From NCBI RefSeq assembly GCF_000003605.2, contig NW_003119929.1:82029-112598 (forward strand): a DNA stretch of 30,570 nt, read 5' to 3'. Source of the stretch: Saccoglossus kowalevskii (taxonomy: Eukaryota; Hemichordata; Enteropneusta; Harrimaniidae). Under the pieces are notes generated by a model. That model saw only the letters and a list, made by a program, of their open reading frames with translations, had not been told where the DNA came from and did no database searches. Positions 1,934-30,132 of this stretch are shown piece by piece; position 1 is the stretch's first letter, and each line of letters begins with the position of its first letter. A program made the translations under genes and the position numbers.

Positions 1934-2194
1934 CCCATGCGCGAGATATATGGCGACATTGACTGTTGCGCACATCAACGAATACCAGATGGGACGTTAC
2001 CAAATTTTAATTAGGTATTTTTAGGTGATTGGAATTTATCGAAGGAGTCACCGACGATAATTAGTGCAAATCGCGCCCAGGCCAAACCTCATACTAGTAC
2101 TTGTGATCTCCATTAGAAGAGCACATTGGATTGTGGGAAAATCAATGTATATCAACACAAATGTCGCACATGCGCGCGCGACGACCATCGTCCT
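1934..2194 (+). mobile_element. Diverged MITE copy, related to 17231-17530
   Basis: This stretch aligns with 17251-17530 over most of its length. Shared blocks include GCGAGATATATGG, CATCAACGA(A/G)TAC, AAGGAGTCACCG, GCATTGGATTGTGG and ATCAACACAAATGT. The right end keeps the terminal motif (GCGCGACGAC) and an adjoining TTAA at 2195-2198. The left terminal repeat is degraded or lost, so this looks like an old, 5'-damaged copy. It is non-coding; the 63-codon frame across its left part is incidental. Confidence 0.7.
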
Positions 2195-2542
2195 TTAACC
2201 ACAGGCGCTCGGAACGTTTCTTGGATAATAAAAAATGACCTAAAGTGGGATCGGCATAGTTAGTCAGTCGCCGGTACATTCCCCTACCAGTCATATAATA
2301 ACACAAGTTAGGAAAGCGTTGACACCATGACATCGAAATTTCCCGAAAGTAACACGATTTTCCAAATTATATTTCGATCCGCTTCACAAAACTCAAGCAT
2401 GATAACGATAGAAACTGTCGATCGACTTATATTACCTTTATTCGAACTAAAACGGGTTAAATTCTGTGAAAATCGAAACGCCAGAAAAAAAAAGGACAAA
2501 TCCATCTACGCGGATATTTTGAAGCAGAGACCCGAGCATGCG

Positions 2543-2731: not shown

Positions 2732-4480
2732 GCACGATTGGCTGAACAAATTTTCTCATTTGCATAAATTAATAATCATGAGCAATGAAAAAAAGTGTTT
2801 TTTTTTTTCAGTATAACGGCCAAAATGGGCAAAATCATTTTCTCAATTTCTGACAACAGATTCTATGATGTCATACTTTACCCATAATCCTTTGCTTGGA
2901 AATCAAGATGGCTGACTACATAATACTGATGAAAAGTTGAATATCTAGAGAATGAAAAGTGATTTAAAAGAACTGTAAATTGTATTCTTCTACATTTGTG
3001 GAGCTTTTTCTTGAGGGGTCATTATGTTGTTTGGCTTGATGTTTTCTTTAATAGCAATTTACGAAATTCATTGATAATTCAGATTCACTTTGGTATTTCA
3101 TTCTTGTACCTTTGCTCAAAATTGCAAATAACGTTTTTAATAACCTTTACCAGTTACAAATTACCTAATCAGTATACATTTCGAGAAATCACTGTGTGTT
3201 TGTGCATACGCAGTTTGAAATGGAATAATTTTGAATGCAATGAAATCACGCATATAATACCATCCGGCAAAATACTAGTAGCGCCAAACCGGTTGTCGGT
3301 TCAATTGTTATGCAATATACACAATTTTAGTGCTTATATATTTCAATCTAATGTTTTTATGTTTTGTTGAGGGTTATTCTGTAAATAGCTCACTGGAATT
3401 ACCTTATATACTTGTAAAAGGGCTTCGACAATGACCTACGGACGACTGTAATTTGACCAGTAATTTATTGATCAATGCTCGTATCATTGTTTACACGTAC
3501 CAAACTCTTCTTCGCATTATAATGCACACTAGCCTAACATGTAAAGGTGAGTGGCGCTCTCGCCGGCCGAACGGCATCAAAACTCAATTTGGAGCATCGA
3601 GGATGGCGCAACTCACGCGACCTTACCGTTAAAACAATGTACACACCATGTTAAATAATTTAAAAACAGAATCCACCCATCTGAACTCAATATGGAATGT
3701 TTTCTGTAAAATCCAGAAACTTTAGTAATCGCTGCTCTGTGGCCACTCTTTATGATGCATCGCTGTCACTAGTTGCGTTGTTACGAGTCTGTGCATTTCG
3801 ATGACAGACGAATTCATACCGGCGATAAAAAACACGATATACCGTTGCAGTACTGAAGCTAATGACGCGTTATTAACAACTAACTCCGCGGGTAGATTTT
3901 GAACAATGTTTTTACGGCTGTCGCCAGGGTGCGATAACTTGAAGAATGGGCTCGATTAAGCAAAGATTTCAGTTTTTACACTGTGTTTCATTTGTATCGA
4001 GTTTGAAATCTGCTTTCTAAGTAGAGATTTTGGACCGACAGCATGTTTATACCGTCGGACTGCATTCTGAGTAACAAAACTGTTTGTAATGCGTCAATTA
4101 GTACTTAGTATTTAATATTACGATTATATTTTATGTCGGTGACCGTGTTTAATTAAAACAAATCCATACTATCGGAACTATAAACCCATTTTTTTATATT
4201 TTTTTTTTTATAAATGTTAACAATTAAAACTGAACAAGTGGTCCGTATCCTCCGATGGAATAACATTGGAACATTTTTAAATAGCACCACTTTGGGTACG
4301 GTGAAGTGTGAACAATTGAAGAAAGAAGAAAAATTGTTGTTGGGCCGTTCAAATATATTGAGACACGAATACGTTTTTAAATAATTAAATATGAATCCTT
4401 GAATTCAACGATTATTTCGCCATCAGCATCCGACGTTTGAGTTTTTGAAATTATGTCAGATTGGCCCACCCATTAAATTA

Positions 4481-4603
4481 GTGGTTATTATAATTTATTT
4501 TCTAGGTATGGCGGACAAAGGCGCGGATTTCGAGGATCACAATGAGAAGACAATGTACACTATTCAAGGTATTTATATTTTATGGTTGTGCATGGTACAA
4601 TGC
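4481..4603 (+). repeat. Leader exon 1 with its flanking intron sequence (first copy of a duplication)
   Basis: The exon 4506-4568 reads MADKGADFEDHNEKTMYTIQ and has a close second copy at 5717-5779. The similarity runs past both splice sites: TAATTTATTTTCTAG before and GTATTTATATTT after are identical in the two copies, and TGGTTATT(A/G) just upstream also matches. This is a genomic segment duplication rather than convergent exons. The ATG here is the likely start codon of gene 1. Confidence 0.8.
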
Positions 4604-7600
4604 TTCGCTCCCTCCCGACTGCTTTTTTGTTGCAGCTGTGGTGATATTGTCCAAATGGACTAACAGTCGCGTTAAACTTGTGACCTTGTGTAGTACCACC
4701 TGTAAATCCTTTCAGTTTTACTAAACATATTATCTTCACATTTCAGATGCTTATACAGCAACCATACATGTCCTTGCTGACGATCTGAAGGCGGTGGAGT
4801 GTCGATTCCTAGCACGCAATATGGGAATATCTGATGTCACTATTGATGATCTTGAAAAAGACAATCCTGGCAAAACTCGAAAATTTAAGCGAGAACTATT
4901 ACGTGTATGCTTGGCTAAATATAAGTTACCAAATGACGTCGATAAGGTAGCAGAGAAGATACTCATGATTGAAAGAACAGATCTGGCGGAGAAATTCAAG
5001 GATTTTGTTAAAGGTTAGTATTTTAATTGACATTCTCACACCTTCGAGACAGAATTGTCGTTTACAGCCTTTCTTTCGGTGCTGTCTCACGGATCTGAAG
5101 TTGTTTTTAAAAAGAACAGGGAATAAATGCAATACCGAGCGAGAATGGTTGTAGGCCGCGTTACAGCGAGCGCAAGATTAGTCTGATCGTGAAAACTCTC
5201 CCTATCAATGTCCTTTGGAACATTGTTCTGACAACCGCTGTACAAATACTGCTATTGTTAATAATAATTATTGCACCATTGCTTGACTAAATTGAACTCT
5301 GTATTTGGGTTTGTCTGCACTGACATCAACCCACACAAACTGACATTAGACATCTATTGACATATTAAATATGGTAATTGATAAATGGGTGGGGTTACGG
5401 TAAATCAAATGTACAAACTGTGCTTACATCGTCAGTTTGGAACTAAAATTGTTTCCAGGATGTTTATGTGGTTTTTAAGTATATCCAAAATTAAACAAAA
5501 CAAGAATGGGTTGCTGAATTGTTATTATACAGTATCTCACTTTTAATTAAAGTATTGTGTTGGTTCTTTGAATTTTTTACCTGTACACATAGTGTATCCC
5601 AGTTTAATAGAAATTTTGTGAAATCGACTATCATTCCATCAACATCTTTCTTTGATATAATGTGTCGTCTAATTGTCCACTCATTATTTATTTGGTTATT
5701 GTAATTTATTTTCTAGGTATGAAAGACAAAGGCGCAAGCTTTGACGTCCATGAAGAGAAGGCCACATACACAATTCCAGGTATTTATATTTCACCATTGT
5801 GTCATAGTACAAAATAAAAATATGTGATTTAATATAACTATTTTAGACGTCTTGCAAGACAATTATTTTTTATAATAGTTACTCGTTTGGTCGAATATAC
5901 ATGAAGTACAGACAAATGGCCCAGACTGGTGATAGCCCTCCTTAATTGTATATTGGGTGGTACAATGATATTCATGAACATTTTTAGTGAGTTATCAGTC
6001 ATGAGTGGTGCATATTAAGTGATAGATGACTGATCTTTTGCAATATATGCTTTTTTTTTGATGTTATGGAAAAGGAAAAATACAATCGTGATATATTTGT
6101 TGGTAATTTGTACTTTACATGGACACCTATAATAAATGTATGTATCTGTATTGCCTTTTCAGTCAATTGCCATGGTGTTGATAGTCTACCACAAGAATTT
6201 GTAGATAGACCAGGTGACATTCAGAAGCTTGTAGATATGATTACGAATTGTGATGGTAAACCACTTGGTATTATAGATCAACATGCTGCCAATCAGACGA
6301 CGTGTCCCTACTCGTATCGAGCTTCGCCAATTGGTATTGGAGGAGGTGGAGGCATTGGTAAAACTACTTTAGCTTTAGCATTAGCACAACATGTCAATCG
6401 AAAGTTAAAAAAAGAAGTAGTATGGCTGACTGTGTCTCAGCAACCAGATATTCTGTCCCTTTTCAATACTATGTATTTTTATTTGACTGGAGAAAAGGGT
6501 ATATTTCAAATGAAAGAAGTGCTAAAGATTGGCTCAGAGAATTCACAAAAACAAAAGAAATGTTTTTAGTTCTTGATGATGTTTGGAATGTAGATGATGT
6601 GACACCATTCATGATGCTTGGTCCAAAGTGTTGTATGTTGATAACAACTCGCAATGAAAAGGTTTTGACTTGCCACAATGCCAAGACGTATAAACTAGGG
6701 AAGCTTGATGCAGAACAATCCCGAGCCATGTTTCTAAAGTATGCCAACACTGACGAAGACTTTATTAAGCAGTTTGAACTCGGGAAACAGGTCAATGAAT
6801 TCCTAGAGATTCTGAAGAATTATCCACTGGCTATTACATTAATTGGATCAGCACTCCGTACCACAGGCATACATGTAAATACAGGAAAGGTGCAACGAAA
6901 ATGGAAACTGAGACTTAAACAGCTTCGCACAAGAAACACCTTTTGGGAAAATCAAGCAGACCAGTTGAAAAATCCCAACTACAATCATACACTGTTGGGA
7001 GCATTTGATGTCAGTTATAACTTCCTTGGTAACGAATTAAATTCTGATGCACAGAACGTAATACAAAGAAGATTCTTGGATTTTGCACTTTTTCCAGATG
7101 ATACAAATGTTCCGTTCAATGTACTTCATAAATTATGGGTAGATGGTGATGAAGACCAACTAGAAAATGATTTGGATATTTTAACAGAATCATCGCTAAT
7201 CAGTTGTACCACAAATCAAGATGGGAAAGAGTCTTATAAAGTTCATGACTTGGTTCTACAGTATGCTCAGCATAAGTTTGAAGATGTTCTTGGAAAAGGG
7301 TCATTATATCAAAGACAATGTTACCTTATTGATCAGTATAGGGATGACTGTAACAGACAAGACTTAAGCTGTCCTAAACAACCTAATTCTCTCCATGAAA
7401 TCCACGCAGAAGACGGCAAAGATGACGTGTTTCCTTGGTGGAAGATACACAGTGATGGATATATCTACACACATCTGGTTCATCATTTAATGAAGGCTGG
7501 GTTTGACAAAGAAGTTAGACTGCTGCTAATTAGTTATCAGTGGATTAAGACCAAACTTACACATACTGATATAGCTTCTGTGATTTCTGACTATGAGCAA

Positions 7601-10600
7601 TACTTTAAACTCAAGTATGTTGATGAAAGCACAGACATAATGTATGCAGCTCTTACATTTACTGCACCAGTAGTTGCAAAGCATAATGACCAGCTGCCAA
7701 ACCAGCTTCTTGGGTCATTAGTTGATGTTGATAACCCTGAAGTAAATGTAATAGTTGAACAAATTAATAATGATCTGAAATCATCAAAGTCCAATTGTTT
7801 ATTGCCTTTAACATCGTGTCTTACACAACCTGGGGGTTACCTGAAGCGGTCAATTGGAGACAACAGGGCAACTGTTCTATGTGTAGGATTCACCCATGAC
7901 AACAAGCAGATATTGGCAGGATTCGGAACAGGTGGATACAAGTCAGCTCATGTGTTAGTAATTGATGTTGCAACTGGAAGAGAGAAAATATTAGGGAAAG
8001 AGGTTGACCATCACAAAGGACTAGTATTTGATCTTGCAATTCATCCCAAAGACATGTTTGTGGTGACTGCTTCTTTTGATCACACACTTAAGATTTGGTC
8101 TCTTTACAGCGACTTTGAGAAAGTAAAGACATTAACAGGACATACAGGCTACCTATACTGTGTTTCAATGTCAAGTGATGGCAAATTTGCCGTATCTGCT
8201 GGCCAGGATAAAACAATCAAGAAATGGAACTTGAAGAAAAATGTGTGCACTTTGACAATTGGTGGGCATGAGGGAACAATTCGCCAAGTTTGCATAACTA
8301 GCCAAGGTGATAAGGTAATTTCTGGATCAGAAGATGGAAAAGTGAGAGTATGCTGCCTTGATAATGGTACTATACTTCATGAGTATGATTCTCATGTACA
8401 ACTTGTGTTCTGCATAGCTGTGACTCGTAATGATAAACAGGTGATTACTGTTGGTACTGATAATGCAGCAAAAGTCTTGGATCTAGAGAGTGGCCAGTTG
8501 CAATTTGAGCTTCAAGGTCATTGTAAAGAAATTATCTCTTGTACAACATCGAAAGATGACAGACATATTTTCACTGGTGGAGCTGAAGGTGTGATTCGTA
8601 TGTGGTCACTCCAGAGTGGTACTGAAGAACGTGTATTCCATGGTCATGCTGAACGTGTTAGATATATAGCTATTTCACCAAATGGGAAATTGATGGCATC
8701 AGGTTCTGAAGACTGTTCACTGAAGATTTGGGATTGTGACATAGACTCCAGTAAGATTGTGCCGAATCAACAAGGTCACACATCAGCTGTTAGTGCTATT
8801 GCATTGTCTGCCAATGGCAAGATGGCTGCTACAGCATCACATGACTCCACTGTACGAATATGGGATTTGGCATCATATTCATCCATCCATACCCTATTTG
8901 GCCATTCAGATATTATAAGCTGCATAACAATAGCAGATGCGTTGTCATGTGTGATATCTGGTTCCAGTGATAAAACTATTCGTATATGGAATATGAAAAT
9001 TGGAGAGCTTTGTGGAGAACCACTGATTGGTCATCGGTACATGGTAACAGCAGTGCATGCCACAACATACAAGGGGAAAGATATTTTACTTTCTGGTTCC
9101 TGTGATAATATTATAATTTTGTGGGATATCAAATGCAAGATTCAGCTTTATCATCTGATTGCTGATTCATATAACGTTATGAATTTGTTCTCGTCCAGTT
9201 ACTCAGAACAACCTTGTTTACAGATTATGGCAGCTTTCCGAGGAAGTGTTTGTAAATGGGAATTGTCTCAGTTACAAGATAATTCTTCTGTTCCTAAACT
9301 ATATCCAGTCCACAACCATTGCCAATTACAGACCCCTAACTATCCAGCTATCCCTCACACAGTTCAGAATGGTTTTATTGTTGGATGGGAAGAGATGAGC
9401 AGAATTCGGTTCTGGGATTTGGATAATGATATAGATTCAAAGATAGTCAGTGGACATGATGACTTTGACATTGTGACTTCATTACACTTGAGCCAAGATG
9501 GTGGCATTCTTGTATGTGGTAGTCAACATGGCTTTTTGAACATTATTGGTTTATGCAAAGCAGGCAATCCAATGGGAAGACTGCAGACTCCTGATAACAT
9601 GACATCCCCTGTTACAGCAATAACTGCATTACAGTCGGATGATCATGATGCAATGTTTTTCTTTGCTGGATTTCACAATGGGATGATTCTAACATGGGAG
9701 ACAAATGATAAGGCTCGTGTTTATGAGTGTGGAAAAACTCCCGCAAAAAGTCATGAAAATGGAGCGCTGACGATTAGTAATGGGAAAAACGTTGGACAAG
9801 GATCATCCACTATAACTAATCTAGTTGCATACACTGAAGACAAGACAGTGAAACTTCTCTCCACTGGACTGAAACAAGACGACACATCAATTACAATATG
9901 GGATGTGAATGCTGGGAAACGTATCCACCAATTATATGGCCATACTGATATTGTGACATCTGTATGTATGACCAGTCACGTGAATGTCATGTCTAGTTCA
10001 CTTGATGGCTCTGTGATATACTGGGACTTGAAAACAAATGGTCATCAGTGTTACAAATCTCCAGATGCCATCACGTGTCTTGCTGTTACAGCTGATAGTA
10101 ATAATTACATTATTGGTTCTAAGCGCAATGTCATGGAGGTACATGAAGTAACTACAGGGGAACTTCTGAAGTCATTTTCTTTGGGATCAAAGTTCAACAT
10201 GAAGAAATTGGCACTGTCTGTAGATGGAAAGCATGTGAACTGTTGCTATGATGACCATACTGCTGAAACACGATGTTTGAATACTGGGAAGCTAGTGTCT
10301 GATATGGTTGGTCATCAGAATGAATGGGGAAATATTTCAAAGTGTTCTGGAAGTGACATGGTAATAAGTAATAATACACACTGCAGAGTGAACTTGTGGA
10401 ATCCAGCCACTGGCGAATCATTGGCAACTATTGGTAGTAGTCATGGTAACTCAACACAGAAAGTTGCATCATCCAGAAGTCCTGCAAATAAAAGTACAGG
10501 GCATCGACGTATGATAACAGCAGTGCATATCAACAAGGATCTCATTCTTACAGGGTCATATGATAAATCTCTGAATATCTGGAAAGTTGTAAAATCTCAA

Positions 10601-10738
10601 AACTGCCAATCAGTTCTCATAGATAGCTATTATTTTGAGCATGCTGTCACATCTATTAATATGACACAAGACAATGTCATTTGTATTGGACTTCTGAGCG
10701 GATTGGTCTGTTTTATTCAGATGAAAGAAGGTGCGTAA
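4508..10738 (+). CDS. Gene 1: Death-like/NB-ARC/WD40 APAF-1-like protein, with a 1-base frameshift
   Basis: Exons are 4506-4568 (ATG at 4508), 4747-5013, 5717-5779 and 6163-10738; every junction is phase 1. In order they encode a 20-aa leader, a Death-fold domain (core ARNMGISDVTIDDLEKDN), a second 20-aa leader-like segment, then NB-ARC, an APAF-1-like helical domain and about 18-19 WD40-type units. NB-ARC motifs seen: P-loop GGGIGKTTLA (about 6350), Walker B MFLVLDDVW (6560-6586), sensor LITTR, YPLAITLIG and VHD in place of MHD. At about 6508 one base is missing relative to gene 2 (CAAAT against CACAAT). As written, translation stops at 6567-6569 after about 265 residues, before Walker B. 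Beyond the shift the frame stays open to TAA at 10736-10738; without it the protein would be about 1655 aa. The family acts as a nucleotide-switched oligomerising scaffold in apoptosis or innate sensing; ligand and partners are unknown. Confidence 0.85.
4747..5013 (+). other. Death-fold domain exon of gene 1
   Basis: This single 267-bp exon has acceptor ATTTCAG and donor GTTAGT, phase 1 at both ends, and encodes about 89 residues. The pattern LARNMGISDVTIDDLEKDN, then FKRELLRVC, then a closing L..KF.DFVK matches the six-helix Death-domain layout (LA..LG.S...I..IE). The paralogous exon at 17693-17953 shares ISDVTIDD, the F(K/R)(R/Q)ELLR core and the DL(A/S)EKF(K/Q)DFVK ending. A CARD or DED is less likely but cannot be excluded by eye. 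Confidence 0.75.
5014..5716 (+). other. Intron of gene 1
   Basis: It starts GTTAGT and ends ATTTTCTAG. I see no further Death-domain copy or other coding exon. Its 3' end resembles the sequence before the first leader exon. Confidence 0.75.
5692..5814 (+). repeat. Leader exon 2 with its flanking intron sequence (second copy of the duplication)
   Basis: Exon 5717-5779 encodes MKDKGASFDVHEEKATYTIP, aligned without gaps to the first leader exon (shared KGA.F, EK and YTI). It sits between the Death exon and the NB-ARC exon and is phase 1 at both ends: G|GT before, G|TC after. Its internal ATG at 5719 is in frame, so a transcript starting here would encode an NB-ARC/WD40 protein without a Death domain. 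That isoform is inference. Confidence 0.75.
5780..6162 (+). other. Intron of gene 1 before the large NB-ARC/WD40 exon
   Basis: It starts GTATTT and ends TGCCTTTTCAG. The open frame running from 6066 into the exon is intronic read-through: the phase of the preceding exon and the match to gene 2 both put the exon start at 6163. Nothing else is recognised here. Confidence 0.7.
9662..9961 (+). other. Near-identical tract shared with gene 2 (likely gene conversion), gene 1 copy
   Basis: About 300 bp match 22938-23237 with roughly 10 differences. The stretches 9791-9894 and 9896-9961 are fully identical, third codon positions included. Sequence on either side differs every few bases. The tract encodes parts of two WD units (AGFHNGMILTWET to VNAGKRIHQLYGHTDIV). 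Confidence 0.8.
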
Positions 10739-11757
10739 GTCAGTACAGTACTTCAATTCGCCAGTATCTTGTATACACGCATACCGAGTTCTTGGACAAC
10801 TGTCAGAAGCTACTTTGTCAAATTCTTCAAATTACCATTGTTTTCAAAGCTTGGACACTGATTTTGAATACATACCCCTTGTACATGCATGTATTTTTTA
10901 GTCATAAATTGATGGTGACCATAAATTGAGTAATACTAGATTATTAACATCCCTTTACTGATCAAAGTCGTAGTATTGTGATATGAACGTTCAATCTATT
11001 ATTATAATTAATAGCTACATTATACTGTCATGATGACTGTGAATTATTTACTTTTCTGACTATCGAAACACATTCCTGGTGTTTATTGCAGCTGCGCCTG
11101 ATACTCTCTAATCTGGGACAACTACTTTCAGATATTGGTCAAAAATGGAGCTTATATGCTATTAAAGCGGGAGGGTTGTTTCATGCGCACGCACGGGAAC
11201 TGAGTCCCAAGCGACGATAACTGCACATGCTATAAACGTAAAGGCTCATGGGCAGATGCTTGTTTGTAAACAATGACACGCTATGGCCATCTGACGCATG
11301 CGCAGGTAACGACTCCCCCGCTTTAAGCTTTGTACGTTTCCTGATGCTGATCATAGCTGATGTACCGTGTCCCCAATCTCCAATTTTCACTTGTCTCTAT
11401 AAATGTACTAGTCATAACAATATGTTTAAATAACATTTGGCAGATGTTCTTTTCAAGTAGTATATAATATGTGAATGATGTCAAAACACAGATTTTATAC
11501 CCCATTTGAACACCTTTATATAAATAAAAACCTAGTGTGAGGTTCAATACTGTGTGTACTAGTACAATATTAATTAATATTCATAAACCTGTCATTGCTC
11601 ACAAGATGAACTGACGTATGTGTTAGTATTTACCCATTTACGTATGCAAAATAACATCGTTAAATATAAAGTTTGCCCTATTCTCCTGGGTTTATGGTTA
11701 TGATGGATATCATATATTTCTTTTTATATTTATCACATATACATGTCAGTAACAGAT
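10739..11757. other. 3' flank of gene 1
   Basis: The stretch is AT-rich and non-coding apart from a TTAA-flanked MITE at 11166-11322. Possible poly(A) signals are ATTAAA at 11161-11166, at the element's edge, and AATAAA at 11523-11528. A small open frame from 10681 is a shadow of the gene 1 end. Confidence 0.6.
11166..11322. mobile_element. MITE with TTAA flanks
   Basis: The 157-bp stretch is bounded by TTAA at 11162-11165 and 11323-11326. Its ends are imperfect inverted repeats: left AGCGGGAGGGTTGTTTCATG; right, read inward on the other strand, AGCGGGGGAGTCGTTACC. TTAA target duplication is the mark of piggyBac-type transposition. There is no coding capacity, so it would be non-autonomous. 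The terminal AGCG(G/C)G resembles the element at 17231. Confidence 0.65.
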
Positions 11758-12380
11758 ATGTTTGGAGGAATATTTTTTAATGGTCACAGCTGAGGTCAAT
11801 AACAAATGTTTGGAAGAATATTTTCTGACATTGATCACAGCTGAGGTCAATAACAAATGTTTGGAAGAATATTTTCTGATATTGATCACAGCTGAGGTCA
11901 ATAACAAATGTTTGGCAGAATATTTTCTGATATTGATCTTAGCTGAGGTCAATAACAAATGTTTAGAAGAATATTTTCTGATATTGATCACAGCTGAGGT
12001 CAATAACAAATGTTTGGAAGAATATTTTCTGATATTGATCACAGCTGAGGTCAATAACAAATGTTTGGCAGAATATTTTCTGATATTGATCACAGCTGAG
12101 GTTAATAACAAATGTTTGGAAGAATATTTTCTGATATTGATCACAGCTGAGGTCAATAACAAATGTTTGGCAGAATATTTTCTGATATTGATCACAGCTG
12201 AGGTTAATAACAAATGTTTGGAAGAATATTTTCTGATATTGATCACAGCTGAGGTCAATAACAAATGTTTGGAAGAATATTTTCTGATATTGATCACAGA
12301 TGAGGTCAATAACAAATGTTTGGAAGAATATTTTGTGATGATGATGATGATAATGATTACTGCCGAGGTTAATAACATAG
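11758..12380. repeat. 51-bp minisatellite, about 12 units
   Basis: A 51-bp unit recurs head to tail, with AACAAATGTTTGG every 51 bases from about 11800 to 12320. Units differ by a few substitutions (GGAAG or GGCAG; AGGTCA or AGGTTA), and the edges are degenerate. Because 51 is divisible by three, both strands stay open for over 200 codons. The plus frame would read repeats of AEVNNKCLEEYFLILIT, but no splice context or non-repeat domain supports a gene. Each typical unit contains TGATCACAGCTGAGGTCA, that is, an E-box and a nuclear-receptor half-site. Confidence 0.95.
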
Positions 12381-14055
12381 GATTTAACAATACATGTATA
12401 GATTCCAGGTTTGGTTTAGCACTGCCACAAATTGGTGACCCTGGAAAATGCCCCAGGGTTACTTCTGTCTAATTCAAAACACATTTCACCATAGTGTAAT
12501 GTGCAATTGGTAGGGTTGATAATCTCATTCGAGTATAGCTATTTATTTCTAATTAAATGGTCAACATTTTATCACAAATGTGTTTATCAATAAACTGATG
12601 TTTTATGTGTCACTATTATAATGTATTATATGTATCTTGCCTGTAAATAATGCTTCTTTATTTAAATAAATCTGTGACTTTCATTAAATGTTTGTGTATT
12701 GTCTCTATTGTGAAATTGACGCCATTGATTTTCGTTAAATATTCATATGTTGTATTTCTGTGTGACCACCATGACCTCTCATTCGAAATGTTCATATGAT
12801 ACACCGTATGAGATACCGCCAGATAATAACAACTCGCACAAATTTGGTTACCTAGTTTGTTATAAAATTTACTACTTCTGTTCAAAAAATTACTAACAAA
12901 TTACTATCGGTTTGAGATAATCTAACGGGTGACATCGCTTCCAATGAGTTTGTGCGTGTGGTGTTTGTTTGCATTGAATTAAGATAACTGTTCCTTGGTT
13001 TAATATTTTGACAAGGTGGCTGAGCATGTTAATATGAAAGTACTTATGAAAGTACGAATTACTATCGCCACGATTACCAAAACGTTAAAAAACTGCCAGC
13101 AAATAAATAATAAATTAAAACAAAGTAAAAGAAAGTGTATGATAAAAATGAATAGTTAAACAATATATTTTGAAAAAATGAAGCCAAACTAGGATGTTAT
13201 TTTAATCAGATTGTTTACAGCAAATGTCCTTCAAAGATGTTTGTAGGTTGGAAGCCATACTACCGGCAACACCCGGGCGGAGTGAAACGACTACTCAGCT
13301 TAGCCATCGATGGTGAGTGTAAAATAATAATATTGTGATTGTTTCCCTGATAAGCGATAAGCACTCCGCGATGATGTTTACAAAAGTTCAACAATGTTTG
13401 CATTTTCATTTTGAAAACAGTCGACATACGTCAGCCAACCTGAGGGCGGGCCTGGCATATTGGGTTTGGGGTTCGGCGTAAACTTACAGCTTTGGTTTGC
13501 AAATAAAACAGTATGAGCTTAAACATTTACCTCCCCCCCCCGATATAATCACGTATTATCATGATTTTTCAGAGCGAACGCGATCCAGACGTCGCCAGCA
13601 AGTTAATTTTGAGCTTCTTTGGCCTCCACATTTTAATTGTATAGTCTCCTCTTCAGGACGTAGTTTTCTTGAGAGACATATATGCAATTACATTTGGGGG
13701 CTGGAGTGTTAACATTAGGGTTTAGATTAGAAATGGAGGGTCTTAAAGAACTCTTTCCCTGTTTTCAACTGTTTCGTTAAAAGGGCTAAATTACATCAGC
13801 ATCCTAACAATAATGTAATCTTATTTCATTTTCATGTTTATCAGCTGATTTACCTATCATGTCTTAATAGGGTGATATCGTGAAAATTGTAAATATATGC
13901 AGCAACACAAATTAAGTCATCCACAATCTACATATGAAAACAAGTAATAAAATATATACTCCAATCCCTAATAATTGTCTTTGTATATTTGAATGCATAT
14001 TACAACTGTTAACGGAATTAAGCTGAATTGCGAGAAACCTTGTACACATGTGATC

Positions 14056-14180
14056 GGTACCTTCGTTGAAAATAAGAACAAATATATATTGAACACGATA
14101 AATACCCGTCCCCACTCACTCACGAACGAGTGAATATCGTGTTTACTATTTGGTTGTTCTCATTATCAAGGAAAGGTACC
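14056..14180. repeat. Imperfect inverted repeat (foldback)
   Basis: The left arm starts GGTACCTTCGTTGAAAATAA and continues with GAACAAATATATATTGAACA and CGATA. The right arm, complemented, reads GGTACCTTTCCTTGATAATG, then AGAACAACCAAATAGTAAAC and ACGATA. The loop is about 20 bp. It could be a foldback element or a degraded palindromic transposon. Confidence 0.55.
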
Positions 14181-14743
14181 GAACGCCTGTGTAGTAGTGT
14201 AAACACAATGCGAGTGACCTGCACGGGCAAAGCGAAACATGGCTGTAATTCTTGTTGCCATATAGAAGTCTCTTTTTGTTTAAGCGAGAGCGCTTACAAT
14301 GCTACACAATTATTTAGGTCAGGTGGGTTAAGGTGAGTGCATACTACGGTGGTTCATAAACACAATCCGCAACTAACAATTATATTTCAACGACCTTCGC
14401 AAAGACGTTTCCTTACAGTACACACGTTTCTCTGTCTTATATTTAACTTTTGGAAGTTGTATTATATACTTCGGTACAAAGTTCAAAGCCTATAGTTTTA
14501 CACAAACTACTTACAAATACATGGTTAAACTGAGTGTGCGCTGTTTCCTGAAGTGTTTGTAGATGGTCAACAAGAATAGTACATACTTTAAAGGGGCAAC
14601 ATTTATCGAGTAACATTCTAATTGTTGATTGGTTAAAGTGTGTATCATATAGCACGGCCACGGCTACATCCTGTCAAAATTATAATAATTTATACAATAC
14701 ACAATACTTATCATTGATTTCGGATTGCAGTTACGGATCACCG

Positions 14744-14828
14744 TATATATGGCCGTTCATTGATTGGGAACTGAAACAGTCACGTACCAGTCTGTTGTAG
14801 CACACATTCATTCGAGTTACACCCGAAG
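14744..14828 (+). promoter_or_regulatory. Possible TATA box and first non-coding exon of gene 2
   Basis: TATATAT at 14744-14750 is followed about 80 bp downstream by GAAG at a consensus donor GTAAGT (GT at 14829-14830), as expected of a short first exon. GGAACTGAAAC at 14767-14777 resembles an interferon-regulatory-factor element (GRAANNGAAAS). The link to gene 2, whose first coding exon is at 17155, is inference. Confidence 0.3.
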
Positions 14829-17154
14829 GTAAGTAGCTCGTCAGAATAATTTTAGATAATTCAAAATAACTTGTAGCTGTCTGATGCATAAATAATTCGA
14901 AACAATTATTGGTATATTTGTATTGTTTAACGAATGTTATCGGAACGTTTTAATGATCAAAACGACCATTGACTCGTTATAGCTAACCATGAGCCCCGGG
15001 CATTAACAGGTCGGTGAACCAGATCGAAAAGTTCCTTCATGTGTTTATCAGCCGGTTTATTTTGTAAAGCCTAGGCAATGTGTCATTTGTTATTGTGGAA
15101 TTTTGGTTAGGCCACACTGATTTAATTTTATGAATGACATCCTCTGGAGACCCCAAAACTAATGCGAGAGAGCGAAAAAATAATCCTGCTAAAACAACAG
15201 GACTACGGAGCTTGTATTACGAATTGAACCACAGAACACAGTGTATCAAAAAACACAACAAGTCTTTATTTGTAGGAGGCACATGTTGATGTACGCATCT
15301 CGTACTGTATTACTGTCACAGGTATAACCATTGAAATGAAGCCTACATGTTAACCCTACAAATATGTCTAATGTTTCATGTCTAGGGATCTCAGCCTCAA
15401 GTATCAGAAAAAAAATGATCTCTTGCACTCCTGTATACCCCACACATTGATCTCTTCAACAATAGGTCCTTTCTTCCTTCTCAGCTATCACATCCCTAGG
15501 CCACCATACACCTCCACTCCTATCCCATTTCTCTCATCGTTGCATCGCGGGACAGCCACTCTGGACAATATGTCCTTATAGCTGTGTAAACGTCACATCT
15601 CCCTGGCCGACGTCAATTGCGTACCAGTCTACAACAATCCCTCCGTTTTCCCTCTGAACTTTTATGCTCACGTATTTTGGTGGCGTGGTCGCCATGTTGG
15701 AATTCCCGGCAACACAGTACGCATGTGCAGAAGATCATTTACGACATAACTGACACGTTTTAAGGTAGTCCAAAACGAGTTTTACGAAAATTCGGCGTTT
15801 TGCGACAATATGAGTTGGCAAGTTCCAGACTGAAAACCGATCTGTGACAACTCTTCATAGGAGATTTTTTTTTTTTTTTTTTTTTTTTGAGAAACAGGCG
15901 AAAACTAATGCGCGCGCGGATGTCATCCATAACATTAAGTCGGTGTGGCTTTAGCAATGGCGTCTACTGGAAATGGAATTCTGATACAACTAACCAAACA
16001 ACCAACATTATCTTACAGTTGAGGACATAACGTTTTATGAATATAATTTTTTATGAATCAAAATGGATGTTAGAATTCAAATTGACCAGTTCGGAAATGG
16101 TGTTTTGCCATCAAAGTTAGTTCCAGTTAATATTAATGACGTTGACATCATCCAATAACCAAGCGCCTCATTTCGAAATTGTGGGCGGTCGTAATTGCTA
16201 TGTCATGTGACGTTGTTTAGCTCTTGGGTCAATCTTTATTGAATATTTGAATTTGAGTGAAAGCTGTTTATCGCATTTTACAAATATAGATATAGATGCG
16301 TTTATAAACAAAGTCACAGTTTTGTGCCATTCACTTGTAAAGCGATATTTATGCCAGGACAGAAACATGTCGTTAATCGCTGAATAATTTTAAATAAGGA
16401 CTCAATTTGTGTCACTATGCCAGTTATTGGCAAAATGGGTATAACGCAGTGTAGTGCGAACAAACTTAGCAGTAAAGCTATAAGCAGTAAAGTCATAGGT
16501 GTTAACAATGTCAAGGAACGTATATGTATGTGTCACCATGGTGGCTAGCATTGTAAATGTAGCAATGAACATTTTACAATTTATGTCAATCCCTATTGTG
16601 TCATCACTTTTATATTCGCGCCAAAACAATAATGACTTTATTTTAAAAACTGAAAAACAAGAACATGACACTATTTGTAATTATGCAATAGATGGGGATA
16701 CCAGTGTAATATATAATAGTTAATTAGCAACGCGCCCATAAAGAGCAACGTGTAAAATTAGAAATTATCGTATGTCGGTGACGTCTAGACATGACGCAAC
16801 ATGGTTAAAAATTACCTTGTTCGGGCCTCTATCCGGGCCTCCCTTCATATATAATATATACCGTCATAACGTCATAATGTGTGTTCAGGTCTATATCTAT
16901 AATATAACTATCTCGATTTCGTTAAATATCTGATATATCGTACATGACTCCGGCCTATTTGCATTATTATAGGCTATTATTTACCTGCTTTTCTATTTTT
17001 GTTAATGGCCAGAATAACAACGACGTTCATCGTTTCCATTCTACGGGTTTTGCGTAAATATTGTATACCCTACATAACAACGTGAAATGTACATAAGGCA
17101 ATGCATGGACACGATATTGCGTAAACATAGTAGTAACATTTCAACGACCTAAAT

Positions 17155-17158
17155 ATGG
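17155..17158 (+). other. Proposed start micro-exon of gene 2 (coding part ATGG)
   Basis: AAATATGG at 17151-17158 abuts a consensus donor GTGAGT (GT at 17159-17160). Splicing G to the AT beginning the Death exon at 17693 makes GAT (Asp), so the protein starts MDDKIANF. The phase fits exactly, and no other nearby ATG gives a phase-1 donor this good. Upstream 5' UTR sequence belonging to the exon is undefined. Confidence 0.5.
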
Positions 17159-20100
17159 GTGAGTAAATATTTGCACTCTAATGCAATCTGTTAAGTTAAG
17201 GGGGCTTATTAATTCGTTGGGGTTAATTAAAGCGCGGTAGTCGTCGCGCTGCGCATGTGCGAGATATATGGGTCTCATATAAACAAAGATGGCGACTTTG
17301 ACTGTTGTGCAGATCAACGAGTACGAACTGAGACGTTTTCCAAGCTTTAATTAAGTAATTTTCATGTTATTGGAAGGTATCTAAGGAGTCACCGGCGGTA
17401 ATCAGTGGAAGTCGCAACCAGGTCAAACCTCATACTTGTGATTTCCATTTGAAGAGCGCATTGGATTGTGGGGAAATCAATGTTTATCAACACAAATGTG
17501 ACACATGCGCAGCGCGACGACTATCGCGATTTAAAGTTCAGTGACCATACAAATTTAGCAAGAGAATATGTCCCGAGGATGTAATCATTTATTTGAACCT
17601 TAAACCCACTTTCTTTGTTTACAGTACTTTGCAGTATTATTGTGTAATATCAACAAAGTATAGATTAAGGGCTCACTTGTTATTTTTTACAGATGATAAA
17701 ATTGCGAACTTTCTCACCGGGTATGTAACAGCTCGAGAGTATAGAATACTTGCACGACATTTGGGGATATCGGATGTGACTATTGATGACATTCACCAAG
17801 ACAATCTATGCAAGACAATGCAATTTAGACAAGAACTTTTAAGGTCATGTATGGGTAGACTCGAATTCCCAAAAGATGCAAAAAGGATGACAGAAATATT
17901 TATGAAGATCGATAGAGTTGACTTGTCAGAGAAATTCCAAGACTTTGTGAAACGTTAGTTGAAATATATTATTGTTCAGCTATTGCATGTTTATTCGTGA
18001 CAGTAACTTATATTGTATTGCAGTCATATATACATTCGCAATTGAAAATGAGATATATGAGCAAACACAGCTAACTACATAAAGCGATCACTGAATTTCA
18101 CTCATTATGTGGCACACACCAGTAAACGGACTAAAACCGAAATAACCAGGTTATTTATATTGTGTTTCTGCGAGAAAATATAAATTGTTTGTGGTGCTCT
18201 TACTTTTTTGATTGTGTTATTGTATTGTTTAAATGTCTGTTGCATTTATTTTAATTCATTGCATTAACACGAAGGATACAAATACACGCATAATATCGCT
18301 ATTTGTACCATTTAAATATCGGTATAGAATCACGTATTTACCTTTCCCTCCAAACAGACATTTGTTAGATATTTTGTACAGATCATATGTTGAGGGTGTA
18401 CGATGTTTTTTATTTAAACTCAAAATAACAATGTCATTTCTTTCAATAATAGGTTTAGAACAACAAGGTGTATGTGAACACCATGACAAAGACCAGGATC
18501 CACCAGGTGAGAATTGTACATAATTCGATTTATTGATAAGAGGCACAGTGCATACAATCATCTGTATTTATTTTGTACTTGACTTGTGCCTCTGTTAACT
18601 GTTAACTGTTAACTGTGAACTGTGAACTGCTATGCATACAGTATTATTATATGTGCTATTTATAATTACAGTTACGAAGAGAATGCGATACGGTGATGAA
18701 GACAGCAGTGAACGAGAATTATTACGTATGTACCAATAATATCAGCATTTCTATTAGCGCTATTGATAATATAGTCTATACGCTGTGATTTATGCGTCCA
18801 TGTGTCCGACGTCATTTCCCGGACATAACTGGACCTATTAAATTGGTGGTTGGTTGAAAAACAAAATAGCATATATTCTTGTCAATCTGTTTTTCGGTCA
18901 TTTTTTTCTACCATTTGATAAGTCCTGTCTAGGATGATTGTTTGTATTGTTTCGTGATTATAGTCATAATGCCCAGCTGGCTTTCTTACCACAAGTGAAT
19001 ATCTGAAAATGAATAGAACGCATTTCTATCCATATTCAGATATTCATATATTTTGCTTTCATTTGGTATAAGGAAAGACATATTGGGTTTGAATGTTCAC
19101 TTCTGGTATTTTGGATTGCAGTGGAATATAATCTATTAGCGCAGAAAATCCAGGCCTGTTGGGATGGTTTTATTTATTTTAGTCAAGTTTGTGTGTACGT
19201 ACGTCACACGGATAACATCAGCTTGTTTTATGATGACCGACTGGCAGCTATGTCGGTTTATTGTTATGCATAATTAACCATTTCTTGGACTTATTTCATG
19301 GAAGAGATTGTTCAATGTTGTTACAAATACGAGACATATTGTGTTAATTCAGCCAAATACAATGTTTAACGTTGACAGATTTCACAATTCATAGCATTCT
19401 GGCTTACTTAAAAGCTTCATTCACTTGCAGTCTTTTGTTTTATTTACAGAGAAATGCCATGGAGTGGACTGTCTCCCCCAAGAATATATTGATCGTCCAG
19501 ATGAGATTCAGAAACTACTAGAGCTAATAAAACAGTCAGAAGTAAAACCTGTTGGTATCTTAGGTAGAAAGCCACTTCTCTGTAAAACATCACCCATTGG
19601 CATTAAAGGACTCGGAGGAATAGGTAAAACTACTTTAGCAATAGCCTTAGCTCAGAGAGTCTGTCAGGATTTTAACATGGAGGTGGTGTGGCTTACTGTA
19701 TCGCAGAATCCTGAGGTTGTGCCACTTCTAAATACTATCCACTTTTATTTGACTGGAGAAAAGGGTAACTTTCACAATGAGAGAAGTGGCGTAGATTGGC
19801 TCAGAGAGTTCACCAAGTTGAGAGAACTTTTTCTAGTTCTTGATGATGTTTGGAACGAAGATGACGTAACACCTTTTAGAGTGATTGGTCCAAAATGTCG
19901 TATTCTAATTACAACACGTCGTGAGGAAGTTCTTGCATTCCACAATGCTGAAAGCTTTTTACTTAGTGATCTGAGTGTTCAGCAGTCTAGAATGATGTTT
20001 CTCAATTACATGAAAACGGATGAAAATACGATTAAAGAGTTACAGTTATCTAGATGTGTAAATGAATTCCTTGCAGCTTTGAAATATCACCCCCTAGCTA

Positions 20101-23100
20101 TTGCACTTTTAGGTTCAGCTCTTCGTTCAACTCGCAAAATTGAGAGATTGTGGGAGAAAAAACTTGAAGAACTGAAATGCAGTGAGACGTTTTGGAAAAC
20201 CAGAGCCAATGAATTAAAAAAAGAAGGCTATGATTACACTTTGATGGGAGCTTTCGATATTAGCTTTGACTATCTTGGTAAAGATGAAAAATCGAATAAA
20301 CTAAATTCAGCTCAGGAACATTTCTTGGATTTAGCACTATTTCCTGAAGACACGCCCATACCAGTTGATGTATTGAAGAAGCTTTGGATGAAAGGCCAAC
20401 CTGTGGGTTTATATGATGTCGAATGTAAAGAAGAGATGGAACAGCTAGATGAAGACTTGGATGTTCTGACTGCATCTTCCTTGGTGAATATGGTTGAAGA
20501 TGGGGGAATTGATAGCTACAAACTGCATGATTTGGTATTGGGATATGCGGTTTATAAATTTAACTACATTTATGGTGATGGTATGTTATGCAGACGTCAG
20601 TGTGACCTTGTTGAATACTATAAGCAGGATGTGATTCGTACTAATCTATTGGTAATTACTCCACATTCCCAACAATGTTTTCCATGGTGGACAGCGCGGA
20701 ATGATGGGTACGTTTACAAGTACCTAGTGCACCATCTACTGAAAGCTGAAATGCATGATGATGTGATGCAGCTGCTAATGAACTATAACTGGGTTAAAAA
20801 TAAACTGGAAAAAACTGACATTGCAGAAGTAATCTCTGACTATGAAAATTACTTTAAGTATTGCGAAAACAGAAAATTACCCGTAAGTAACAGCATCAAA
20901 AATGTGTATACAGCTCTTACGTTTACTGGACAAGTGGTTGCCAAACACAAGGATCAACTACCAAACCAGCTTCTTGGGTCATTAGTTGATGTACCTGACC
21001 CAGGAATAGTTGATTTCCTTGACCAGATTAAACATGACCTAGATTTATCCAACCAATGTTCTCTCATTCCAATAACAGCATGCCTTTCTCAGCCAGGTGG
21101 CTTCTTGAAACGGTTCATACGTGACAACAGGGCAACAGTTCTTTGTGTAGCTTTCACCCATGATAATAAACACATACTAGCGGGATATGGAACTGGAGGA
21201 TATGGTTACAATACAGCTCATCTTCTTCAGATAGATGCTTCTACTGGAAAAGAGAAAGTTCTAGGAAAAGAAGTTGATCATCATAGAGGTTCTGTATTTG
21301 GTCTAGCTATCCATCCATCCAACGAGTTTGTAATAACTGCCTCATTTGATAAAACTCTTAAAATATGGCCACTTCACAATGAGTTTGATAAAGTTTATAC
21401 ACTCTCTGGACATGATAGTTTTGTTTATTGTGTTTCCATCTCACAAGATGGTACATTTGCAGTTTCTGGTGGAGAAGATAAAACAGTGAAGAAATGGAAT
21501 CTGAAGATGAAAACATGCAGTTTGACAATTAAAGGACACAAGTGTACTGTTCGCCAAGTATGCATCACTAGTCAAGGTGATCAAGTAGTCACTGGTGCAG
21601 AAGATGGCCAACTGCGTGTATGCTGTCTCACAACTGGCAACATACTAAAGCAGCATGAACCTGGGTTACAACTCATCTCATGTATATCATTGGCTAATGA
21701 TGATAATACTGTCATTTCAGTCGGTAAAAACAATGCTGCAAAAGTAGTAGATATGAATACTGGTACGATTCTGTTTGAACTTCATGGTCACAATAAAGGA
21801 ATTATATCATGTGGTTTGTCCAAAGATAGTAAATATGTGTTCACTGGAAGTGGTGATGGCATGATTAGAATGTGGGAACTTTGCAACGGCAGAAAAGTCC
21901 GTGAATTCCAGGGGCATGCTGAACGAATTCGACATATAGCCATTTCACCAAATGGGAAATTAATGGCATCAGGTGCCGAGGACTGTTGTTTGAAGATTTG
22001 GGATTGTGACCCAGAAAGCAGCAAAGCAGCCACAGTACAACAAGCTCACATATCACCTGTTAGTGCCATAGCATTGACTGCTGATAGAAAGATGGCTGCT
22101 ACAGCATCACATGACTTCACCGTGCAGATATGGGATTTGTCAACATATTCACACATCCATACTTTTTATGGCCACACTGATATTATAAATTGCATAACAA
22201 TATCAGATGCCTTGGCATGTATAATATCTGGTTGCAATGACACAACTATTCGCTTATGGAATATAGACAATAAGAAGTATTTTGGAGAGCCCCTTCTTGG
22301 ACATGACTACCCAGTAACAGCACTGCAATCTTCAAGATGGCATGGTAAAGATATATTACTTTCAGCATCACACGATAATATTATAAATGTTTGGGACATC
22401 AAACAGAGAATTAAACTGCATCATCTATCAGGAATTGACAATGGTGTTAAGTATTTACATGTTTCCATGATACAGCAGGAGATGATATTAAGGATTACTG
22501 CAGTGTTCCAAGCAAGTGTGTGCACCTGGGAAATCCCAAAAGATAACTTACTACAGCAGTCTCGCACAATATTTTATCCACAACATCACTGCCATCAGTC
22601 AGAAAGATACAAGTATCCAGTTGTTTCACAGACAAATTATAACCGCCTAATGGCTGGGTGGGAAGAAATGAGTAAAATTCGGGAGTGGAATTTAGAGAAT
22701 AGAATTGAATCAAGGATACCGAGTGGACATGATCACCATGATATTGTCACATCCCTGTATTTAACTGAAAACGATGAAATAATAATCACAGGCACTAATA
22801 ATGGAAACTTAAATATTATAGGATTAAAGAAACTGAATCCCATTGGACGACTGCAGGTCCCTCATGACGCCATGAACTCGGTCACTGCAATTACTGCATT
22901 GCATTCCATGCCAGATGATCCAGATGCGATGTTTTTATTTGCTGGATTTCACAATGGTATGATTCTAACATGGGAGACAGTTGATAAGGCTCGTGTTTAT
23001 GAGTGTGGAAAAACTCCAGTGAGAAGTCATGAAAATGGAGCGCTGACGATTAGTAATGTGAAAAAAGTTGGACAAGGATCATCCACTATAACTAATCTAG

Positions 23101-24023
23101 TTGCATACACTGAAGACAAGACAGTGAAACTTCTCTCCACTGGACTGAAACAAGACGACACATCAATTACCATATGGGATGTGAATGCTGGGAAACGTAT
23201 CCACCAATTATATGGCCATACTGATATTGTGACATCTTTATATATGACCAGTCACGTGAATATATTATCGAGTTCACATGATGGCGCTGTGATATACTGG
23301 GACTTAGAAACAAAAGAACATCGACGTTACAAATCTGGGGAATCTCTAAACGGTATCACGTGTCTCACTGTCACAGCGGATAAAACTAGATACATCATTG
23401 GTTCCAAAAACAATGTCATAGAGGTCCACGAACTAACCACTGGTGCACTTCTGAGATCATTTTCTTTGGGGTCAAAGTTCACTATGAAGAAAATGGCAAT
23501 GTCGGTAGATGGAAATCATGTAATCTGTTGCTATGACGACTATACTGCAGAAAAGCGATGTTTGGAAACTGGAGAAATTATAAAAGACATGTGTGGTCAC
23601 CAGAATGAATGGGGGAATGTTGCACAGTGTTTTGAGGAAGGATTTGTTCTTTCCAGTGGTATACTTTGTGGACTAGACATTTGGAATCCTACAAATGGAG
23701 AAATATTAGGAAGTGTTGGCAGTAGCTATGCCAACAAAAATATGATCACATCGACAGAATGTTCAAATGAAGGTTATATTCGCATGATTACTGCTGTTCA
23801 TGTCCACAAGGATATCATTATAACAGGATCGTATGATAAGACATTGAAAATCTGGAAAGTTGATAAAACAAAGAACTTTAAGTCAACTCTTATCACCAGT
23901 TACTCTTTTGAGCATGCGGTAACATGTATCAATATGACACAAGACAACATTATCTGTGTTGGGTTCCTGAGTGGGCTGGTATGTTTCATTCAATTGAAAC
24001 ATGGTGTTTCAGTTAAAACTTGA
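17155..24023 (+). CDS. Gene 2: intact Death-like/NB-ARC/WD40 APAF-1-like protein
   Basis: Coding exons are 17155-17158 (ATGG), 17693-17953, 18453-18506, 18672-18725 and 19450-24023; all introns are GT/AG and phase 1. The predicted protein is about 1648 aa: a Death-fold domain (residues 3-88, LARHLGISDVTIDDI), a linker of two 18-codon exons, and NB-ARC from about 127. NB-ARC motifs are P-loop GLGGIGKTT (178-186), Walker B LFLVLDDVW (251-259), sensor ILITTRREE (276-284), HPLAIALLG (338-346) and LHD (483-485, MHD position). A helical domain like the APAF-1 HD2 (about 535-676; NYNWVKNKLEKTDIAEVI) precedes some 18-19 WD40-type units, more than the 15 blades of APAF-1. NB-ARC and WD40 share one uninterrupted 4.6 kb exon. 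The likely role is a cytosolic nucleotide-dependent scaffold that assembles a Death-domain signalling complex; ligand and effector are unknown. The first exon is the least certain part. Confidence 0.88.
17231..17530. mobile_element. 300-bp MITE with TTAA flanks, in intron 1 of gene 2
   Basis: It is bounded by TTAA at 17227-17230 and 17531-17534. The terminal inverted repeats are about 28 bp: left AGCGCGGTAGTCGTCGCGCT then GCGCATGTG; right, complemented, ATCGCGATAGTCGTCGCGCT then GCGCATGTG. TTAA plus such ends suggests piggyBac-type mobilisation. It encodes no transposase. A damaged relative lies at 1934-2194. Confidence 0.8.
17693..17953 (+). other. Death-fold domain exon of gene 2
   Basis: Acceptor TTTTTTACAG and donor GTTAGT bound a 261-bp exon, phase 1 on both sides. 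The residues include YRILARHLGISDVTIDDI, FRQELLRSC and RVDLSEKFQDFVK. It is clearly homologous to 4747-5013, but its first helix differs (ANFLTGYVTARE against IHVLADDLKAVE). Confidence 0.75.
17954..18452 (+). other. Intron of gene 2
   Basis: It begins GTTAGT and ends TTTCAATAATAG. The open frame entering the next exon from 18233 is intronic read-through. Nothing else is recognised. Confidence 0.65.
18453..18506 (+). other. Linker exon A of gene 2 (54 bp)
   Basis: The acceptor ends AATAG, the donor is GTGAGA, and both sides are phase 1. It encodes R/LEQQGVCEHHDKDQDPP, a hydrophilic, charged linker with no recognised domain. It has the same length as the next exon, 18672-18725. Confidence 0.6.
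18593..18629. repeat. 7-bp short tandem repeat in a gene 2 intron
   Basis: Three units of TGTTAAC are followed by two of TGTGAAC. The TAACTG formed at the unit joints matches the MYB recognition core (YAACKG), though a plain microsatellite explains the pattern. Confidence 0.85.
18672..18725 (+). other. Linker exon B of gene 2 (54 bp)
   Basis: Acceptor ATAATTACAG and donor GTATGT bound a phase-1 exon reading V/TKRMRYGDEDSSERELL. The basic KRMR next to an acidic, Ser-rich segment could be a weak nuclear-localisation or phosphorylation site. The C left at its 3' end plus AG of the next exon makes Gln, joining directly to KCHGVDCLP. Confidence 0.6.
18726..19449 (+). other. Intron of gene 2 before the large NB-ARC/WD40 exon
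   Basis: It begins GTATGT and ends TTTATTTACAG. I see no coding exon or recognisable element in this 724-bp stretch. Confidence 0.65.
22938..23237 (+). other. Near-identical tract shared with gene 1 (likely gene conversion), gene 2 copy
   Basis: This is the counterpart of 9662-9961, with about 97% identity by eye. The direction of transfer cannot be told from two copies. Confidence 0.8.
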
Positions 24024-24224: not shown

Positions 24225-24755
24225 GCGTTTTATTCATTGAATTGTTTTTTGTTATGTTGACATGTGTTAAAGTATGGAAATTATTTAACATGAATAACCA
24301 TTCGATTATCAAATATGATATTCAAAATGTTACCTTATTGTAAAAATTAATTATTGTATTTAATAAATAAATATTTATTTAATTGTATTTATTGGAAAGT
24401 ACTCAACATGAAATATGGCTAGCCATTCGATCATCATGGTCATATGTTACTCTTTTATAAAAATAAATTACTTTGAGTTATATTATTTCAATTGTATTTT
24501 TTGTGTTTTTTGCCAATTCAACATGTGTTAAAGCTCGAAAATTACTTAACATGAAATATGACTTACCATTCCATTATCAGGGTCAAATATAATATTCGAT
24601 TACTTCTTTGTAACATTAATTTATCGTGAGTTTTATTCATTGTTTTTTTTTAATGTGTTGAAGCTTTAAAATTACTTAACTTGAAATATGACTAGTCATT
24701 TGATTATCAGGGTCTAATATGATATTCGATTTGACAACTTTTTGTAAAAATAATT
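24225..24755. repeat. Imperfect tandem repeat, four units of about 120-140 bp
   Basis: The blocks CTTAACATGAAATATGACTA, CATTCGATTATCAGGGTC and TTTTATTCATTG recur four times, with anchors near 24289, 24407, 24549 and 24684 and indels between copies. AATAAA at 24362-24367 is a possible poly(A) signal of gene 2. Confidence 0.75.
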
Positions 24756-24756
24756 T

Positions 24757-25130
24757 ATTTAGACTTGTGTATATTGTTCAAGAGAATTGTGTTTATATTG
24801 CTTAAAAGAATTTTGTATATTGTTTAAGAAAATTGTGTATATTGTTTAAGAGAACTGCATTTATTGGTTAAGAGAATTTTGTATATTGTTTAAGAGAATT
24901 GTGTATATTGTTTAAGAAAATTGCCTTTATTGGTTAAGAGAATTTTGTATATTGTTTAAGAGAACTGTGTGTACATTGTTTAAGAGAATTGTGTATATTA
25001 GGAAAATTTTGTATATTGTTCGAGAATTGTGTATATGGTTTAAGAGTATTGAATACATTGTTTAAGGGAATTGTGTGTATTGTTTAAAAGAATTGTGTAT
25101 ATTGTTCAAGAGAATTGTGTATATTGTTTA
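24757..25130. repeat. About 22-bp minisatellite array
   Basis: Units of the form TTTAAGAGAATTGTGTATAT plus TG repeat about 16 times with variation (TTCAAG, TTTAAA, TTTATTGG). The array resumes for one unit at 25326-25352, after an inserted segment. Confidence 0.9.
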
Positions 25131-29979: not shown

Positions 29980-30054
29980 CTGAATAAAACAAACATACCC
30001 ATAAAATACCTTTCAACTGACTGATCAACTGACTTTTGGAGTTATCTTCATGAA

Positions 30055-30130
30055 ATGAACAAATCTGCAAAGGTCTACAGAGGGTACATATAAAATAGCA
30101 TTTTCACCAAAATGACAAAAACATTCACTA
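30055..30130. repeat. Stray fragment of the 157-bp repeat family
   Basis: GAACAAATCTG, AGGTCTACA and CACTAAAAT, in the order seen at 27500-27720, show that this intronic sequence derives from the repeat of the composite element. The 56-bp array grew next to it. Confidence 0.6.
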
Positions 30131-30132
30131 AA

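Follow-up and report, generated by a model that had tools for sequence, protein, structure and literature searches.

Two genes of the hemichordate Saccoglossus kowalevskii lie head-to-tail in the window analyzed here, a stretch of 30,570 nucleotides (contig NW_003119929.1, labeled C1268, positions 82029-112598, in an assembly of 572 Mb and 4,830 contigs), and each consists of a small Death-fold exon followed by a very large exon that encodes an NB-ARC, WD40 repeats and, between them, a helical domain of the APAF-1 type. On balance we favor reading them as tandem paralogues of an APAF-1-like Death domain-NB-ARC-WD40 protein that would act as a nucleotide-switched platform for clustering Death domains. 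The domain order, the Death-like fold, the nucleotide-binding motifs of the downstream copy (gene 2), a separate APAF-1 gene and candidate adaptor genes in the same assembly are directly supported. One animal genome keeps both the canonical CARD apoptosome gene and a separate Death-domain version of the same machine.

Two genes with a shared domain order

The large exons lie within stop-to-stop frames of 1,542 amino acids at 19395-24023 (gene 2) and a matching 1,458 amino acids at 6362-10738 (gene 1), about 13.3 kb upstream. Our predicted gene models join exons at GT-AG sites and contain seven introns (three in gene 1, four in gene 2), all GT-AG and all keeping the frame; the joined model of gene 2 has five exons and 1,651 amino acids with no internal stop. 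Coordinates, GT-AG exon joining and profile matches agree with the initial annotation, made from the bare sequence, that two head-to-tail genes share one domain order. Its statement that NB-ARC and WD40 share a giant exon is right for the intact gene 2, and fails for gene 1 in that the exon is not one open frame.

In Pfam searches the small exons match Death and no other family, with E = 5.7e-4 (20.4 bits) for gene 1 and E = 1.1e-3 (19.4 bits) for gene 2. CARD gave no match to either exon up to E = 10 in the same database; the CARD of the APAF-1 gene on contig C2341, used as a control, scores 5.1e-17. The two Death exons are 45% identical, and their nearest solved relatives, by sequence and by fold, are Fas-type Death domains; the folds closest to the gene 2 model include that of Fas and that of the 2of5_H Death domain, which is identified as PIDD. 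Two caveats apply to the Death assignment: both Death scores fall under Pfam's curated cut-off of 22.6, and the fold comparison rests on a model from two sequences. The fold rankings agree with a non-CARD assignment and are inconclusive alone; a family's low rank in, or absence from, a fold list is no proof.

The remaining domains are recognized more strongly. Downstream of a break in its frame, gene 1 matches NB-ARC (E = 4.4e-11), the APAF-1 helical domain APAF1_C (2.6e-10) and an APAF-1-like winged helix (5.4e-7) in Pfam; the gene 2 matches are given in Table 1, and the WD40 profile scores are 6.6e-75 and 9.5e-76 for the two genes. Gene 2 carries the motifs GLGGIGKTT, FLVLDDVW, ILITTRR and LHD, which correspond to the P-loop, Walker B and the other usual elements of such a domain. 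NACHT is absent from the full Pfam list for the part from NB-ARC to the helical domain, and no leucine-rich repeat (LRR) family stands among the best 25 of the 50 and 45 matches to the WD40 parts; in these lists the pair does not show the NACHT and LRRs of NACHT-LRR type NLRs. A purpose-built blade profile, whose seed blades were picked by regular-expression counts of blade ends, finds 14 matches in each gene if the weak ones are counted, which is insufficient for counting propellers. Beyond residue 485, gene 2 continues for about 1,039 amino acids (1,524 minus 485), compared with about 702 in human APAF1 (1,248 minus 546); judged from length alone, the extra 337 or so residues may suffice for a third propeller. 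When the helical and WD40 part (1,200 amino acids, from a two-sequence alignment) was modeled, the structure reached a mean pLDDT (predicted local distance difference test) of 32.7 and was not used.

Relation to APAF-1

On C2341 we found exons whose joined translation matches human APAF1 across CARD and NB-ARC at E = 1.8e-71. This gene is 48.6% identical to human APAF1, compared with 28.2% and 28.4% for the window genes; these show a similar closeness to plant Sr35 (27.4% and 31.1% identity, 106 columns compared). In an NB-ARC tree of seven sequences, built without CED-4, Dark or a sequence from another invertebrate, C2341 pairs with human APAF1 (ultrafast bootstrap, UFBoot, 95; SH-like 0.999), separately from the window pair; only these two pairings are supported, the deeper nodes being weak (UFBoot 33 and 44). 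The pair has NB-ARC, a winged helix, the APAF-1 helical domain (PF17908) and C-terminal WD40 repeats in common with APAF-1, the last being present in human APAF-1; it starts with a Death domain where APAF-1 starts with a CARD, and it does not group with vertebrate APAF-1 in the seven-sequence tree. The NB-ARC of C2341 is also split over several exons, in contrast to the single exon that holds NB-ARC and WD40 in the window pair. Because the genome has this separate CARD-NB-ARC gene, sequence comparison largely supports the view that the pair is APAF-1-like by domain content, APAF1_C included, without being orthologous to APAF-1.

These results bear out two expectations of the initial annotation. 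The profile searches and structure prediction that it proposed for the N-terminal exon returned a Death-like domain, below the Pfam cut-off, and no CARD; the separate C2341 gene, the tree pairing and the identities agree that the pair are not simple APAF-1 orthologues. The phylogeny that it also proposed delivered the separation of the two pairs and left the deeper branching weak.

Divergence of the two copies

Over 1,491 aligned codons the genes differ by dN (nonsynonymous divergence) of 0.285 and dS (synonymous divergence) of 1.18, with many 60-codon windows saturated. One tract in the WD40 region has only 12 mismatches in 324 aligned bases; its segment score is 216, and the highest score that 2,000 codon shuffles produced is 48. 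Because this tract is near-identical inside copies otherwise near silent-site saturation, putative gene conversion is the simplest account. Neither this tract nor the frame break of gene 1 appears in the initial annotation. Upstream, two 5' blocks are 81.7% alike, compared with 72.5% for the longest coding match, and are possibly promoter or 5' untranslated region; GC-rich palindromic sites were seen in them by eye. The candidate first coding exon of gene 2 (MLLE) is tentative because its donor is not conserved in the gene 1 block. In gene 1, the exon with the first in-frame ATG (MADKGADF...) and the linker exon resemble each other flanks included (4466-4600 and 5677-5812, 75.7% over 136 bases), from which we take one to be a duplicate of the other.

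Gene 1 runs in frame through its Death exon, its linker exon and the start of its giant exon up to about 6,500, and then shifts: the frame that contains the P-loop is 6030-6569, and everything from Walker B to the end falls in that of 6362-10738, with the break at about 6,500-6,530. Compared with the gene 2 protein, the P-loop part is identical at 64 of 113 positions in one frame and the rest at 845 of 1,446 in the other. Gene 2 is probably functional; gene 1, with its frame broken in this assembly, gives the impression of having lost constraint only recently.

Candidate partners and a proposed mechanism

Profile searches of the assembly, whose match counts here and below are lower bounds, gave 55 Death matches from 84 scored candidates, 13 CARD from 22, 67 DED from 88 and 28 caspase from 27. 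Together with the introns, these families mark the assembly as that of an animal. The partner searches go exon by exon, and the Death list misses the window's own Death exons just as the CARD list misses the split CARD of C2341. Candidate adaptors were nonetheless found. On C4134, DED and Death matches lie about 3 kb apart on one strand, and the Death exon has FADD as its best solved relative (E = 1.8e-15). On C4226, CARD, CARD and Death follow one another on one strand, the second CARD having RAIDD as its best solved relative (E = 7.8e-7), and on C1000 CARD and Death exons fall within 1 kb; C4226 and C1000 are thus our candidates for RAIDD-like proteins and C4134 for a FADD-like one. Six DED matches within 20 kb form a cluster of DED exons at C129:186677-205867.

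Comparison of the lists by eye, the Death list being incomplete, found no same-strand Death match within 20 kb of any of the 28 caspase matches, which makes recruitment through an adaptor a more likely route, as far as these matches indicate, than direct contact with a caspase. Signaling through Death-domain partners, as the initial annotation proposed, is plausible, with FADD-like and RAIDD-like genes present. In PIDD/RAIDD/caspase-2 and Fas/FADD/caspase-8 signaling, clustered Death domains recruit CARD-Death or DED-Death adaptors. Fas and 2of5_H are among the nearest folds of the window Death model; PIDD and Fas are not known to have an NB-ARC or WD40, and for the window pair adaptor recruitment is inferred.

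We suggest that, as in APAF-1, the WD40 propellers would hold the protein shut until a ligand is bound; nucleotide exchange at the NB-ARC would then let several copies form a ring, and the ring would cluster the Death domains. These could recruit an adaptor by Death-Death contact, either the FADD-like DED-Death or the RAIDD-like CARD-Death protein, which would in turn attract a caspase of the DED or CARD type, or some different effector. Ligand sensing, ring formation, the choice of partner and the outcome, whether cell death or inflammatory signaling, are drawn here from analogy. The FADD/RAIDD adaptor route is usually driven by surface receptors or PIDD. More tentatively, the pair could encode a hybrid: a wheel switched by nucleotide in the manner of APAF-1, with a larger sensor of three propellers, would use its Death domains to plug an intracellular sensor into that route, next to the CARD apoptosome and independently of it. 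The pair offers a defined setting for asking if wheels of the APAF-1 type work through FADD- or RAIDD-type adaptors, and which signals this part of the family detects.

Alternative readings

The shared order of NB-ARC, winged helix, APAF1_C and WD40 could also mean that the two genes are simply APAF-1 orthologues with a CARD too diverged to be recognized, and that they build a cytochrome-c apoptosome recruiting a CARD caspase. Human APAF1 is indeed the best solved relative of the part from NB-ARC to the helical domain (E = 6.6e-12), though Sr35 follows at 3.1e-11; the match of C2341 to human APAF1, its pairing in the tree and its higher identity, together with Death exons that show no CARD match, make this very improbable. 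A different question is whether gene 1 is a pseudogene in decay that gene conversion has kept similar to its neighbor in part, with gene 2 alone at work. The single frameshift between P-loop and Walker B and the conversion tract are as such a copy would have them, and a second copy of the broken stretch, looked for in the assembly, was not found. However, the 1,458-codon frame past the break has no stop, the three modeled introns are intact, a lone indel can come from sequencing or assembly error, and the gene 1 branch from Walker B to LHD is the shorter one (0.29 versus 0.48 in IQ-TREE), which argues against long-standing decay. We hold decay to be possible but doubtful; probably the frameshift arose recently, is allelic or reflects an error.

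The Death domain might also contact a Death-domain caspase directly, giving a one-step apoptosome without an adaptor. Amphioxus caspases can carry Death prodomains (PMC2575513); here, the incomplete Death list places none of its matches on the same strand close to a caspase, and the one contig with both, C1602, has them on opposite strands, and we consider direct contact improbable. The proteins may instead be sensors of pathogens or nucleic acids that feed NF-kB or RIPK-type signaling and not apoptosis. DNA sensing by lancelet, fly and mammalian APAF-1-like proteins, as described in PMC11747288, and the larger sensing part of gene 2 are in keeping with this; gene conversion between the copies argues for keeping a stretch alike, not for diversifying it. 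We regard a sensor of this kind as a weaker prospect, and continue to prefer a Death-clustering platform of tandem paralogues.

Known relatives and copy number

The architecture is already in print. In amphioxus and sea urchin, the CARD of Apaf-1 homologues can be replaced by Death domains, and these CED-4/Apaf-1 homologues belong to a repertoire described as expanded in invertebrates, according to the clearest precedent (Zmasek et al., 2007; PMC2246300). The window pair shares with these homologues, as described there, the N-terminal Death domain before NB-ARC, and its gene models combine NB-ARC and WD40 in one protein. Because Death-domain APAF-1 homologues have been described in those animals, there is no need to regard this architecture as lineage-specific. 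A study of placozoans reports 39 NB-ARC genes and several APAF-1-like genes, some of them clustered, with effector domains that are mostly CARD or Death-like, Death in two cases (PMC6321704); several APAF-1-like genes, some in clusters, are a likeness, and 39 genes against about five here a difference. Abstract openings returned by a phrase search for this architecture hold no mention of a Death-bearing tandem pair. The value of the locus lies in two clearly delimited genes, of which gene 2 is intact, and not in a novel architecture.

The NB-ARC search of the assembly gave 7 matches from 12 scored candidates, which amount to about five genes. Two are the window genes, three matches belong to APAF-1 on C2341, and C4614 and C2525 contribute one each, the C2525 gene showing TPR-like repeats by eye. 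Searched against the assembly with three candidates scored, the gene 2 Death domain finds itself and gene 1 well and a third at E = 2.97, with no further close copy, and the WD40 search gave 22 matches, three of which are the window genes. The initial annotation had seen the pair as part of a lineage-specific expansion and had suggested scanning neighboring contigs; the NB-ARC, WD40 and Death searches turned up no other close copy and lend the expansion no support. The locus is a tandem pair and not a large family, at least in assembled sequence; the 20 kb directly upstream of the window (C1268:62029-82028) are all N and could hide further copies. Large WD40 genes on C4558 were set aside as candidate copies, their frames carrying a different NTPase by eye; in appearance they are closer to NWD1-type genes. 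Several such large-exon genes with that NTPase and WD40 lie in C4558:110001-210000, apparently as a tandem cluster of their own.

Feature coordinates and other observations

Table 1. Features of the two genes, in window coordinates.
Feature	Position	Strand	Basis
Gene 1 5' block common to gene 2	1950..2198	+	81.7% alike
Gene 1 exon with first in-frame ATG	4508..4568	+	Frame, GT donor
Gene 1 Death-domain exon	4747..5013	+	Pfam Death match below cut-off, splice model
Gene 1 linker exon	5717..5779	+	Splice model
Gene 1 giant exon (NB-ARC, winged helix, APAF-1 helical domain and WD40), with a frame break around 6500-6530	6163..10738	+	
Putative gene-conversion tract, gene 1 side	9662..9985	+	WD40 region
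Gene 2 5' block common to gene 1	17289..17534	+	81.7% alike
Gene 2 candidate first coding exon	17364..17376	+	Tentative
Gene 2 Death-domain exon	17693..17953	+	Profile, fold and splice model
Gene 2 linker exon	18453..18506	+	Splice model
Gene 2 linker exon	18672..18725	+	Splice model
Gene 2 intact giant exon (NB-ARC, APAF-1 helical domain and WD40)	19450..24023	+	
Gene 2 NB-ARC profile match	19593..20201	+	E 8.7e-23, residues 49-251 of the 19449-21150 translation
Gene 2 APAF-1 helical domain match (PF17908, APAF1_C)	20691..20879	+	E 3.6e-11, residues 415-477
Gene 2 WD40 region, first to last clear blade	21252..23858	+	Blade profile
Putative gene-conversion tract, gene 2 side	22938..23261	+	WD40 region

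Elsewhere in the window, an open frame of 156 amino acids on the minus strand (29633-30103) looks coding by eye and has no Pfam match up to E = 1. Tandem arrays occupy 11625-12447 (unit of 51 bases), 24742-25182 (22), 27246-28061 (about 157) and 30075-30525 (56).

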